NCBI GenBank assembly: GCA_026195905.1
Contig: JAPHRE010000024.1
Location: forward strand, 1 to 36,209
DNA: 36,209 nt
From: Pseudopelagicola sp.
GTDB taxonomy: Bacteria; Pseudomonadota; Alphaproteobacteria; Rhodobacterales; Rhodobacteraceae
Direction: 5' to 3'
Both the position numbers and the translations under genes were made by a program. Below, piece by piece: positions 1,739-35,101 of the stretch (position 1 is its first letter; each line of letters begins with the position of its first letter). A model generated the notes under the pieces. The model did no database searches. It saw nothing but the letters and a program-made list of their open reading frames with translations, and was not told the DNA's origin.

Positions 1739-1771
1739 TGTCTGTATCGCGTCGGTATTGCGTCTGTATTG
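1739..1771 (+). repeat. Array of 11-bp direct repeats, copy 1
   Basis: Three tandem 11-mers, TGTCTGTATCG, CGTCGGTATTG and CGTCTGTATTG, followed by a degenerate fourth unit. The array lies between the small membrane gene and the terminator it shares with glyA. The same unit recurs in two other intergenic stretches of this window (4239-4282 and 34846-34878). This copy lacks the flanking inverted arms seen at the other two. Confidence 0.8.
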
Positions 1772-1797
1772 CGGTGGTGCGGGGTTTGCACAAAGAA

Positions 1798-1862: not shown

Positions 1863-3155
1863 TCAGAGGTTCGGGTAGAGCGGGAAGTTCGCGCAAAGAG
1901 CGGCAACCTTGACCTTGACGGCCTCTTCCACGGCGCTGTTGCCTTCCTCACCGTTTTCGGCAAGCCCATCCACAACTTCGACAATCATGTCGGCGATCTG
2001 ACGGAACTCGTCCTCGCCAAAGCCACGGGTCGTGCCGGCGGGGGTGCCAAGACGGATACCGGATGTGACCATCGGCTTTTCCGGGTCAAACGGGATGCCG
2101 TTCTTGTTGCAGGTGATATGGGCACGACCGAGCGCCTTTTCGGTGGCGTTGCCTTTGACGCCCTTGGGGCGCAGGTCGACGAGCATGACGTGAGTGTCTG
2201 TCCCGCCGGTTACCATGTCGAGGCCACCCTTCATCAGTTGATCCGCCAGAGCCACGGCGTTGGCGCGGACCTGTTTCTGATAGGCTTTGAATTCCGGGCG
2301 CAGGGCTTCGCCAAATGCCACGGCCTTGGCAGCGATGACATGCATCAGCGGGCCGCCCTGAATGCCGGGGAAGATCGCCGAGTTGACCTTTTTGGCGATC
2401 GCCTCGTCATTGGTCACGATCATGCCGCCGCGCGGGCCGCGCAGGGTCTTGTGGGTCGTTGTTGTGGCGACGTCGGCATAGGGGAAGGGCGAGGGATGTT
2501 CGCCTGCCGCGACAAGACCGGCAAAATGCGCCATGTCGACCATCAAGAACGCGCCGACCGAGTCCGCGATTTCACGGAACTTGGCAAAGTCGATCTGGCG
2601 CGGGATGGCGGAGCCACCGGCGATGATGAGCTTGGGCTTATGCTCGGTCGCAAGCTCTTGCACCTGATCGTAGTCAAGCAGGCTATCTTGTTTGCGCACG
2701 CCGTATTGCACGGCGTTGAACCATTTGCCCGATTGGTTCGGCTTGGCGCCATGAGTCAGGTGACCGCCGGCGTCGAGCGACATGCCGAGGATGGTATCGC
2801 CGGGTTGCAGAAGCGCGGTAAAGACGCCCTGGTTGGCCTGCGAGCCGGAGTTGGGCTGTACATTGGCAAAGTCGCAGCCGAACAGCTCTTTGGCGCGGTC
2901 GATGGCGAGGTTTTCGGCCACGTCGACATATTGGCACCCGCCATAGTAGCGACGGCCCGGATAGCCTTCGGCGTATTTGTTGGTCATGACCGACCCTTGC
3001 GCCTCCATCACGGCGGCAGAGACGATATTTTCCGAGGCAATCAGCTCGATCTCGTCGCGTTGACGTCCCAATTCATCGGTGATCGACCCGAAGAGTTCAG
3101 GGTCGCGGGTGGCGAGAGATTCAGTAAAGAAGCCGGGGTCGCGAGTCGCGGTCAT
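1863..3155 (-). CDS. glyA: Serine hydroxymethyltransferase
   Basis: GlyA interconverts serine and glycine with tetrahydrofolate and 5,10-methylene-THF, and is the main source of one-carbon units; it is a cytosolic PLP enzyme. The 430-aa protein has the full family pattern: IASENIVS near 39-46, the [15 protein letters not shown] substrate and PLP stretch at 59-73, [11 protein letters not shown] with Asp207 and His210 stacking on PLP, and [14 protein letters not shown] with Lys236 as the Schiff-base lysine. Length matches bacterial enzymes. A GGAG lies nine bases before the start. The gene is divergent from NAD kinase; the short space between them holds two small inverted repeats (TTCC-TAAA-GGAA at 3194-3205 and TTACCC-CTT-GGGTAA at 3206-3220) that may be regulatory. 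No riboswitch was recognised. Confidence 0.97.
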
Positions 3156-3332: not shown

Positions 3333-4094
3333 ATGTCCAAGGCAATTGCCTTTGTGGCGAGCGAAGCGGCGGTGGCGCAGGTGGCGCGGGCTGCGTTGGT
3401 GGCGCGCTATGGGGATTGCGTCCCGGAAGCGGCCGATGTGATCGTGGCCTTGGGCGGCGATGGGTTCATGCTGCAGACGCTGCATGGGTCCATCGGGATT
3501 GATACGCCGGTCTACGGAATGAACCGCGGCACGGTCGGGTTCTTGATGAACGAATACAGCGAGACGGATCTTCTTGTGCGCCTTGAGGCGGCACAAGAGG
3601 AGGTCATCAACCCGTTGCGCATGAAGGCGACCAGCGCCAATGGCACAGTGCATGAGGCCTTGGCGATCAACGAGGTTTCGCTTTTGCGGGCCGGGCCACA
3701 GGCGGCGAAACTGCGCATCACGGTCGATGGGCGGCTTCGGATGGAGGCGCTTGTGTGCGATGGTGCATTGCTGGCAACCCCTGCGGGATCAACGGCTTAC
3801 AACTATTCGGCGCATGGGCCGATCCTGCCGATTGGGTCGGATGTCTTGGCGTTGACGGCGATTGCGCCGTTCCGGCCAAGGCGGTGGCGCGGGGCGTTGC
3901 TGCCCAAGACCGCCAAGGTCCGGTTTGATGTATTGGACGCCGCCAAGCGCCCGGTGATGGCGGATGCCGATAGCCGGTCGGTTGAGGATGTGGTGTCGGT
4001 TGAAATCCATTCCGAGCCAAGCGTGCGGCATCGGTTGTTGTTTGATCCGGGGCATGGGTTGGAAGAACGTCTGATCCGCGAGCAGTTCGTTTGA
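3333..4094 (+). CDS. nadK: NAD kinase
   Basis: Phosphorylates NAD to NADP, using ATP or polyphosphate, in the cytoplasm. The 253-aa reading starting [10 protein letters not shown] is preferred over the longer open frame from 3213 because it matches the length and N-terminus usual in the family. Diagnostic motifs are GGDGFML (41-47), [11 protein letters not shown] (61-71), the NE pair at 113-114, [15 protein letters not shown] (149-163), which shapes the NAD site, and a late D-x-D (211-213). The upstream AGG ribosome binding site is weak. The gene is divergent from glyA. The downstream 280 bp before prpE contain two repeat elements and the prpE terminator. Identification is firm; only the exact start is uncertain. 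Confidence 0.94.
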
Positions 4095-4183
4095 TGGAGC
4101 GCCGCCCGTGGGGAGGCGTGCAGGATGTCTCGTCATCGGCCCCTTTTCAGGGACCGCTGCCTGCGGGGGGGTGCCTCCGGCGG

Positions 4184-4206
4184 GAGTATTTTCACAAAGG
4201 TGAAAA
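4184..4206 (+). repeat. GAGTATTTT-type intergenic element, divergent copy
   Basis: GAGTATTTTCACAAAGGTGA matches the left half of the 22-bp elements at 24414-24435 and 24586-24607 exactly over GAGTATTTT, then resembles the CAAGATGAA half loosely. It follows a G-rich stretch (4164-4184), as does the copy at 24414. It lies downstream of nadK. Confidence 0.45.
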
Positions 4207-4208
4207 AG

Positions 4209-4323
4209 GTTAACGCGCTGTGAGGCCGGAGAATGCCACGTCGGTATTGCGTCGGTATTGCGTCTGTATCGCGTCGGTGGAGGGGGTGCGATCAGCGGGG
4301 GTAACGCAGCGTGCGCCGTTAAC
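4209..4323 (+). repeat. 11-bp repeat array with inverted flanking arms, copy 2
   Basis: The core consists of CGTCGGTATTG twice (4239-4260), CGTCTGTATCG (4261-4271) and CGTCGGTGGAG (4272-4282). It is bracketed by GTTAACGCGCTG (4209-4220) and an inverted partner CAGCG..CGTTAAC (4307-4323) that carries an insertion of about five bases. The element fills most of the space between nadK and the prpE terminator. Confidence 0.7.
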
Positions 4324-4330
4324 AAAAAGA

Positions 4331-4357
4331 AAAGGCCCCGCGCGGGGCGGAGCCTTT
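4331..4357 (-). terminator. Terminator of prpE
   Basis: An outer stem AAAGGC/GCCTTT encloses an inner CCCC-GCGC-GGGG hairpin with a short asymmetric bulge. On the minus strand it is followed by T-rich sequence (TTTTCTTTTTGTT), and it starts about 20 bp after the prpE stop. Confidence 0.75.
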
Positions 4358-4376
4358 CTTAAGTGTTGGTGATGGC

Positions 4377-34526: not shown

Positions 34527-34796
34527 ATGGCCGGTGGATGGGCGCGCGATGGCGCGGTGAGTGAACAGATTGAAGCCTCGATCAGCGATGAATTGGAGCG
34601 CATGAAGGCGCGAAAAACCCTTGTGGGAGAAAGCCTTAGCCATTGCGCCGAATGCGAGGAGGAAATTCCCGAGGCGCGCCGCAAGGCGATCCCCGGCGTC
34701 AAACTCTGTATCGACTGTCAACAGGAGCGCGACGGTGCGGCGACGGCGCGCGGCGGGATTAACCGGCGCGGATCGAAGGATAGCCAGCTAAAATAA
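34527..34796 (+). CDS. DksA/TraR-type zinc-finger protein
   Basis: An 89-aa protein of the short TraR/YbiI kind. A helical N-terminus (1-36, VSEQIEASISDELERMKARK) leads into a four-cysteine zinc finger, CAEC (Cys40, Cys43) and CIDC (Cys61, Cys64), with the typical IPEARRKAIPGVKLCIDCQ between. The long coiled coil of DksA, with its DxxDxA tip, is missing, so direct control of RNA polymerase in the manner of DksA is doubtful, but TraR-like short proteins do bind in the same channel. AAGGAG six bases before the ATG fixes the start. It follows the Crp/Fnr gene by 41 bp and may be cotranscribed. Confidence 0.87.
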   Translation: MAGGWARDGAVSEQIEASISDELERMKARKTLVGESLSHCAECEEEIPEARRKAIPGVKLCIDCQQERDGAATARGGINRRGSKDSQLK

Positions 34797-35101
34797 GCCC
34801 GGGTGCGACTCGAAAGGTTAAGGCCGCAAAGGGGCGGTTGTATCACGTCGGTATTACGTCAGTATTGCGTCGGTATGGACCGGCCAAACGCGGCCCTTAA
34901 CGCGGCGCACGGGTTACGATTTGGTGAATGGCAATCGGGCCGGAGTTTTAGACGAATTCCGGGGTGCGCAGGAGGGGAGTGGGGGCATTCGGCCCGGCCC
35001 AAAGGAGTCACGGGTGTTGGACATCCTTTGATGAGTTTTGAGATTTTCCCCAAGTCTGCCAGTATCCCGGTATTCAGTTTGAGACAGGGAAAGGAATTTC
35101 A
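34797..35101. other. Intergenic region with repeat element copy 3
   Basis: These 305 bp hold the 11-bp repeat element (34817-34901) and, near the right end, the presumed promoter and leader of the secreted-protein gene. No gene was recognised; the open frame from 34803 runs through the repeats and lacks a ribosome binding site. Confidence 0.5.
34817..34901 (+). repeat. 11-bp repeat array with inverted flanking arms, copy 3
   Basis: Core units CGTCGGTATTA, CGTCAGTATTG and CGTCGGTATGG (34846-34878). Arms GTTAAGGCCGC (34817-34827) and GCGGCCCTTAAC (34890-34901) are inverted copies differing by one inserted C. Same layout as copy 2 at 4209-4323 but shorter. Confidence 0.75.

Follow-up and report, generated by a model that had tools for sequence, protein, structure and literature searches.

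The arrays and their surroundings

The window, i.e. the whole stretch of 36,209 nucleotides that was analysed, contains three short arrays of tandem direct repeats with a period of 11 bp. All three lie between called genes. The genes were called with a simple codon-usage caller trained on the source genome of the window (G000), and gene context across genera is accordingly approximate. The features are as follows.

1739..1779, + strand: array copy 1, units TGTCTGTATCG CGTCGGTATTG CGTCTGTATTG CGGTGGTG
4209..4214, no strand: left GTTAAC box of copy 2, seen in the sequence
4239..4279, + strand: array copy 2, four units, the final unit being CGTCGGTG
4318..4323, no strand: right GTTAAC box of copy 2, seen in the sequence
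34817..34821, no strand: left GTTAA box of copy 3, seen in the sequence
34835..34878, + strand: array copy 3, units CGGTTGTATCA CGTCGGTATTA CGTCAGTATTG CGTCGGTATGG, a variant without the GTG end
34897..34901, no strand: right TTAAC box of copy 3, seen in the sequence

Copy 1 stands directly past the stop codon of a + strand gene that ends at 1731 and faces the 3' end of the serine hydroxymethyltransferase gene (1863-3155, - strand); there is no GTTAA-type box close to it in the window sequence. Copy 2 occupies the convergent gap between a NAD-kinase-like gene (+) and an acetyl-CoA synthetase gene (-), and copy 3 is found downstream of a dksA/traR-type zinc-finger gene (34527-34796, + strand). 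Terminator-like hairpins, identified as pattern matches only, are present beside copies 1 and 2 (1798-1829, + strand, and 4330-4358, - strand, respectively).

The presence of the three arrays, as proposed in the original prediction, was confirmed: the window contains 8 overlapping matches to a two-unit pattern (at most 3 mismatches), as compared to 0.00 in 100 shuffles. TRF detected all three with a period of 11. The same three, and no other match at E<=1, were found with a 41-position sequence model (R1) that was built from 49 cores, copies of the source genome included. A search of Rfam at the gathering thresholds gave tRNA alone in the window, and no curated RNA family on the arrays.

We note that a second dispersed repeat, of the GGCGGGAGTATTT...GTGAAAAAG type, occupies positions 4090-4207, just ahead of copy 2. 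Stretches similar to it are found elsewhere in the source genome, in G297 and G307, and also in the array-poor genome G316.

The array family in the source genome

The source genome (3,056,911 bases in 80 contigs) gave 179 overlapping matches to a three-unit pattern with at most 2 mismatches, versus 1 for the reversed control, and 245 matches to the array-end pattern, versus 6 for the control. In other words, the expectation that such arrays would be present in many copies per genome holds. At least 82 copies were found; one weak in-gene match (L071) was left out and the remaining 81 were analysed.

The unit has the consensus GTCKGTATYRC and an 11-bp period, and the array can be described as NGTCKGTATYR repeated, with an end that is mostly GTCGGTGCGG. 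In most of the 74 copies that were profiled (7 of the 81 lack the GTG end and were left out) the array is preceded by AAAAAC on the left and followed by a T-rich stretch on the right. A unit was counted if at least 5 of its 7 constant letters were present. By this measure 46 copies have four units, 34 have three and 1 has two, i.e. the number is 3-4 in 80/81 copies. This range is narrow, unlike that of slippage arrays.

The statement that the arrays are always outside genes is nearly right in the source genome, where 2/82 copies fall inside called ORFs, namely the weak match L071 and L020, whose ORF is a weak 64-codon call. In other genomes it does not hold, as some copies there lie within genes (see below).

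Five contig ends of the assembly (C5, C8, C15, C20 and C34) lie within or near an array, as if the repeats had broken the assembly.

Distribution

The exact three-unit pattern is present in 16 of 295 genomes of the family. Model R1 has matches in 28/295, and at least 8 matches in 16 of these. About 22 candidates per genome are scored in the family-wide survey and about 17 in the class-wide one, hence the per-genome counts are lower bounds. Searched genome by genome, G297 has 96 matches and G269 has 77. Among the congeners 23 of 25 genomes have matches; the arrays are abundant in 22 of the 25 sampled and almost absent from three, G298 and G317 having none and G316 one. Among 385 genomes sampled across the class, only two from outside the family matched, with one weak match each. 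Public contigs with arrays were assigned, among the matches listed (80 of 111), to Shimia, Roseovarius, Boseongicola, Pseudooceanicola, Silicimonas and Salinihabitans. One unrelated contig from a Paludibacteraceae MAG (L381:745-774) has a single exact triple repeat; its surroundings are unrelated to those of the arrays, and it may have arisen by an independent tandem duplication.

In other genera the array core is the same and the flanks are different. The flanks recur within one genome and differ between genomes. In G269, for example, a CGAACG...GTTAA segment recurs behind several arrays (L135, L136, L140, L257, L259 and L262), as does an inverted repeat of the GATTTCG..CGAAATC type; the two form a genome-specific tail.

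A 58-nt composite array query had no blastn match in the plasmid and phage collections. A phage or plasmid origin of the arrays was rejected on this ground. The one IMG/VR contig with an array (L422) has genes that are, by eye, those of an ordinary Rhodobacteraceae chromosome, and it may be mis-classified host DNA. In the literature searched, which held little of the subscription literature, no description of these repeats was found.

Arrays of period 11 with units of other sequence were also scanned for in array-less genomes. G317 has one in 200 kb, and the 200 kb scanned of G003 gave none. The scan misses about half of the arrays (it recovered 2/4 in 56 kb of the source genome); in G297 it gave 6 arrays in 151 kb, from stretches that had mostly been chosen for holding arrays. 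The array in the otherwise array-less G317 (L468:15592-15640) is made of the unit AAATGTGGCNN, of which three are clear and a fourth is weaker, and it lies in a divergent gap.

Stability between relatives and sequence constraint

The genome G297 is about 85% identical to the source genome over a 2.2-kb query. All 33 of the 33 source-genome copies (out of 81) that have both flanks in the G297 stretches keep array units in place there; most of these stretches were selected for holding arrays, so that the place and conservation counts are partly ascertained. Two of the copies (L063 and L080) have one unit in G297 by the strict pattern and more by eye. The three places that were free of this selection all carry an array (3/3; L423 and L425 in G297, weak at 31.8 and 28.4 bits, and L426 in the source genome). 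The number of units can shift at a constant place (L011).

As to the copies in the window, the place of copy 1 is rearranged in G297 and no array is seen there. The gap of copy 2 has arrays in G297 and G307 as well, and no array was found at the 15 loci that represent this place in more distant congeners. For copy 3, G297 carries an array at the orthologous position. The gaps of array-less congeners are too diverged from the array gaps for a clean empty-site comparison, and the G297 place of copy 1 is, as mentioned, rearranged.

The constraint on the units was estimated from 21 alignable pairs of source-genome and G297 copies; another 3 of the 24 were excluded for their large inserts. The constant letters changed at 11/464 positions (2.4%) versus 435/2585 (16.8%) in the flanks (p 5e-21); the degenerate letters changed at 36/240.

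Places shared across genera are few. Among 166 array-bearing targets, both flanks were matched in order for 7 pairs, a number that is near chance by an uncomputed estimate. Four of the 7 are from Shimia or near it by protein identity. The remaining pairs are at the gltD-gltB gap (L012 with L033 and with L344) and L119 with L349, the gene names being assigned by eye.

Orientation with respect to replication

Polarity was calculated as the GC skew and as the third-codon-position skew on the array strand; the leading strand is inferred from skew, and in draft genomes it is a local property only. By third-position skew, 77/81 copies of the source genome have CGTCGGTAT on the strand that is richer in G and presumably the leading one, a polarity that was out of reach of the original prediction. 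The plain GC skew is positive on the array strand in 74/81 (p 3e-15). The polarity is 39/39 for copies with boxes and 38/42 for those without; it is 45/46 for copies with four units and 31/34 for those with three. Single GTCGGTAT words away from arrays are distributed 4:4 between the strands, which is a small number.

The same tendency is seen in the other sets. The third-position skew is positive for 11/12 copies of G269 and for 36/39 copies from 17 genomes (plain skew 32/39), where three G269 copies overlap the set of 12. For the public contigs the value is 97/109, or 88/100 when 9 copies that are also in other stretches are subtracted; L381 and one copy with too little gene sequence were left out of this count.

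Two genomes have a chromosome in one contig. In G269 the sampled skew points to an origin at about 2.6 Mb and a terminus at about 1.0 Mb. With these skew-sampled replichores 42/61 copies (the best 61 of 77 matches) are on the leading strand (p 0.004). At E<=1e-10, a threshold chosen after viewing the list, the value is 26/32, and 25/32 with shifted borders. The weaker listed copies are leading in 16/29 cases against the crude replichore borders. The local skew of the short copies agrees in 11/13, therefore the crude borders may miss inverted segments. In G055 13/17 listed copies are leading (p 0.049; 21 copies were counted in the family survey). A gradient from origin to terminus was not significant in G269, the one genome where it was calculated: 20/32 strong copies are in the terminus half (KS p 0.42).

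Gene context

The gaps that hold the arrays were classified in array orientation. Only copies with both neighbours called were used, i.e. those with a missing neighbour or inside an ORF were left out. Background gaps were taken from the same stretches of the source genome with a slightly stricter gene threshold and a length of 60-600 bp. The array gaps (n=71) are tandem-left in 28 cases, convergent in 26, tandem-right in 12 and divergent in 5, as compared to 27, 6, 18 and 25, respectively, in the background (n=76). Thus, in the source genome convergent gaps are favoured (26/71 vs 6/76, p 4e-5) and divergent gaps are avoided (5/71 vs 25/76, p 9e-5). The same trend is seen in other genera (convergent p 0.004, divergent p 0.0002). 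The two tandem classes are at the background ratio (28:12 vs 27:18, p 0.37; 31:27 vs 94:75, p 0.88). A gene-strand bias as the cause of the polarity was rejected, since the tandem gaps match the background. The right-hand gene points at the array in 54:17 cases, vs 33:43 in the background of the source genome.

GTTAA boxes, inverted arms and folding

GTTAA or TTAAC words occur 111 times within 75 bp of the 81 arrays, i.e. 9.33 per kb (GTTAAC is counted twice); the remaining gaps of these stretches contain 9 such words, or 0.81 per kb. The density in gaps of the array-less genomes G317 and G003 is 1.37 and 1.71 per kb, respectively. The boxes are a real feature associated with the arrays. Within 85 bp they are present on both sides in 25/81 copies, on one side in 14/81 and on neither side in 42/81, and the distances are often fixed.

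The inverted arms that the boxes were thought to head are a different matter. The enrichment of boxes near the arrays stands, but inverted arms are not general across the copies. In the 14 copies with GTTAA on the left and TTAAC on the right, the inner 10 nt of the outer arms pair no better than shuffled partners (1390/2000 shuffles reach the observed value). The closer AAAAC..GTTTT pairing was calculated for 70 copies, 4 of 74 being left out. Its mean run (5.36 vs 4.89) is above all 500 shuffles, and its long-run counts are matched by some shuffles.

DNA folds of the window copies were no better than shuffles. As RNA, the + strand of copy 3 folds with z -3.40 (0/200 shuffles as good), and the other five window RNA folds gave no good folding (z -0.27 to -1.34). 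Over the 81 copies the mean z is -0.60 for the array strand, with 16 copies at <=-2, vs -0.29 for the other strand, with 9 at <=-2. The suggestion of an RNA-end structure is weakly supported by these folds.

Arrays inside genes

In-gene copies were found in 3/39 cases in the set of 17 genomes, in 5/110 in the public contigs and in 1/12 in G269. Some of these are doubtful: L338 and L385 are near called starts and L322 is in a stretch with unread bases. Four others were compared with solved homologues, and these score 41-53 bits with model R1. In recQ and pncB of G176 and in a caiB-like gene of G287 the array region aligns to the homologue without a gap. In purL of G269 the protein is two residues shorter than the homologue at the array, not longer. 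For a further in-gene array, L335, the search for a solved homologue gave no match.

As none of the four arrays lengthens its protein, they arose by substitution or replacement, not by the addition of 33-44 bp. The third-position skew agrees with the array strand for the recQ, pncB and caiB-like copies, and the purL copy (1,012,487, + strand) is on the + arm of G269. The idea that the array is a small non-autonomous element is left unsupported, given that the places are stable between related species and that three in-gene copies are without an insertion compared to their homologues. An ancient insertional origin of the intergenic copies is possible, and so is slow mobility.

Comparison with known systems

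Tandem 11-bp direct repeats, one helical turn apart, form the centromeres of the ParR-parC type, which are single plasmid sites. The arrays have the same tandem one-turn spacing, but they are dispersed, have 3-4 units and gave no match in the plasmid collection. REP/BIME elements with RAYT, as well as small interspersed repeats such as BOX and RUP, are dispersed, extragenic and present in many copies per genome. The arrays are likewise dispersed, numerous and mostly extragenic; in contrast to REP/RAYT they have a strong replication polarity, in-gene copies without insertion and no RAYT association. The RAYT family PF01797 was detected in 8/25 congeners (7 over the cut-off), i.e. in 7 of the 22 array-rich genomes and in the array-less G298, and it was not found in the source genome. 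REP/RAYT was rejected because PF01797 does not track the arrays.

Ter sites are orientated on each chromosome arm. The Tus-Ter system is described as consisting of asymmetric protein-bound sites that act in one direction (PMC8347550). The arrays differ from these in being far more numerous and spread along the chromosome. Tus (PF05472) was matched in 0/25 congeners, and a Tus-Ter fork trap was rejected for this reason.

KOPS are described as oriented from origin to terminus and biased to the leading strand (PMC2680272), and AIMS (Architecture IMparting Sequences) as leading-strand-biased repeats that by definition rise toward the terminus (PMC5993296). The arrays share the leading-strand bias, the strand being inferred from skew. 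KOPS and AIMS are octamers, whereas the arrays are 41 bp of 11-bp units, mostly intergenic, in few genera. Moreover, AIMS rise toward the terminus and the arrays have no significant gradient (KS p 0.42, one genome). FtsK-gamma is present in 25/25 congeners, and small changes in it fail to separate the 3 array-poor genomes from the 22 others. For these 25 congeners, the idea that FtsK-gamma reads the arrays and varies along with them was rejected on this ground.

Interpretation

We consider it fairly probable that the chromosome maintains the array as a polar cis-signal, which would work by a logic comparable to that of KOPS, AIMS and Ter and be recognised by a putative reader, because the constant letters are kept, the place is kept between relatives, the direction follows replication and the array can be built inside a gene. 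The interpretation in the original prediction is partly supported. Its idea of a protein-read array with the units on one helical face fits the fixed 3-4 units, the one-turn spacing and the constrained constant letters. That the number of units varies so little suggests that the complex has a fixed size. A protein would occupy adjacent units along a single face of the DNA, by which the complex would gain direction; the direct-repeat design would supply the direction and the 11-bp spacing would keep the units on one face. A fork component, a helicase or a segregation translocase moving with or after the fork would then meet the array in one orientation. In the form that we prefer, the directional protein-DNA complex would be permissive to traffic from origin to terminus and would act on traffic going the wrong way; alternatively, it might load a translocase in the right direction. 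The siting away from promoters and in convergent gaps may give shelter from transcription.

The putative reader is likely to be accessory: arrays are lacking in most genera of the family and in three congeners (no match in G298 and G317, one in G316). The patchy distribution (28/295 genomes; 16 with at least 8 matches) is unlike that of core segregation signals and counts against the polar-signal reading. The few places shared across genera, the lack of a significant gradient and the slightly better RNA folds of the array strand count against it as well. So do the weaker G269 copies (16/29 leading against the crude borders), the G297 place of copy 1 and the 15 array-less loci of more distant congeners at the place of copy 2. 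More tentatively, the arrays may be directional signals of a new class that act over the whole chromosome. In this view, a protein-binding array with an 11-bp period would mark which way replication runs; scattered Rhodobacteraceae would have gained and lost it together with its own dedicated reader, and selection would have written it into the chromosome, protein genes included, by way of substitutions.

The mobile-element and RNA readings are less likely. We find it unlikely that the array is a dispersed, REP- or IS200-like non-autonomous element that inserts into the single-stranded lagging-strand template, with an orientation that follows replication, with the GTTAAC boxes and the weak inner arms as its ends, and with most copies old and partly domesticated. 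Such an element would suit the patchy distribution among the 295 genomes, the favoured spacing of the boxes (which flank the array on either side in 25/81), flanks that are shared among copies of one genome but not across genomes, and the avoidance of genes and promoter-bearing gaps. It fits poorly with the three in-gene arrays that lack an insertion compared to homologues and the fourth that lacks an array-sized one, with a core conserved above its flanks and with the places shared in 33/33 cases (partly ascertained). PF01797, which occurs in 7/22 array-rich congeners and in the array-less G298 and is absent from the source genome, and the lack of a blastn match among plasmids or phages also argue against it.

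Rho prefers spaced YC dinucleotides, and the complement of the array, i.e. CAATACCGACG repeats with YC dinucleotides every 11 nt, would suit this preference. An RNA-level signal at gene ends, either a Rho-utilisation signal of this kind or a 3'-end structure of the array-strand RNA, is in our opinion quite improbable. Gene 3' ends are preferred on both sides (right-hand gene 54:17 vs 33:43 in the source genome), copy 3 folds well as RNA (z -3.40) and 16/81 array-strand RNAs have z <=-2. A terminator should, however, track the gene strand and not the replication strand, where the polarity is 77/81; the tandem gaps of both directions are at the background ratio (p 0.37 and 0.88), terminator-like hairpins are present beside copies 1 and 2 (as pattern matches only) and the mean folding z is small. 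A site for a nucleoid-associated or regulatory protein that is indifferent to direction, with the polarity as a by-product of where such gaps lie, would agree with the 11-bp phasing and the fixed unit number, but it gives no reason for the replication orientation of 77/81 and 36/39 copies or for the avoidance of divergent gaps, and we regard it as very improbable.

Replication-polar signals whose reader is known are few. The reading of the array as a polar signal is of interest in this respect, as a compact array that is abundant in 22/25 congeners and near-absent in three offers a natural presence/absence test for the reader and for the function, and the well-conserved set of arrays is a usable set of sites for pull-down or ChIP. 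An array of fixed size and many copies, nearly always orientated the same way with respect to replication and mostly kept in place between related species, suggests an unrecognised directional chromosome signal in some marine bacteria of the Roseobacter group.
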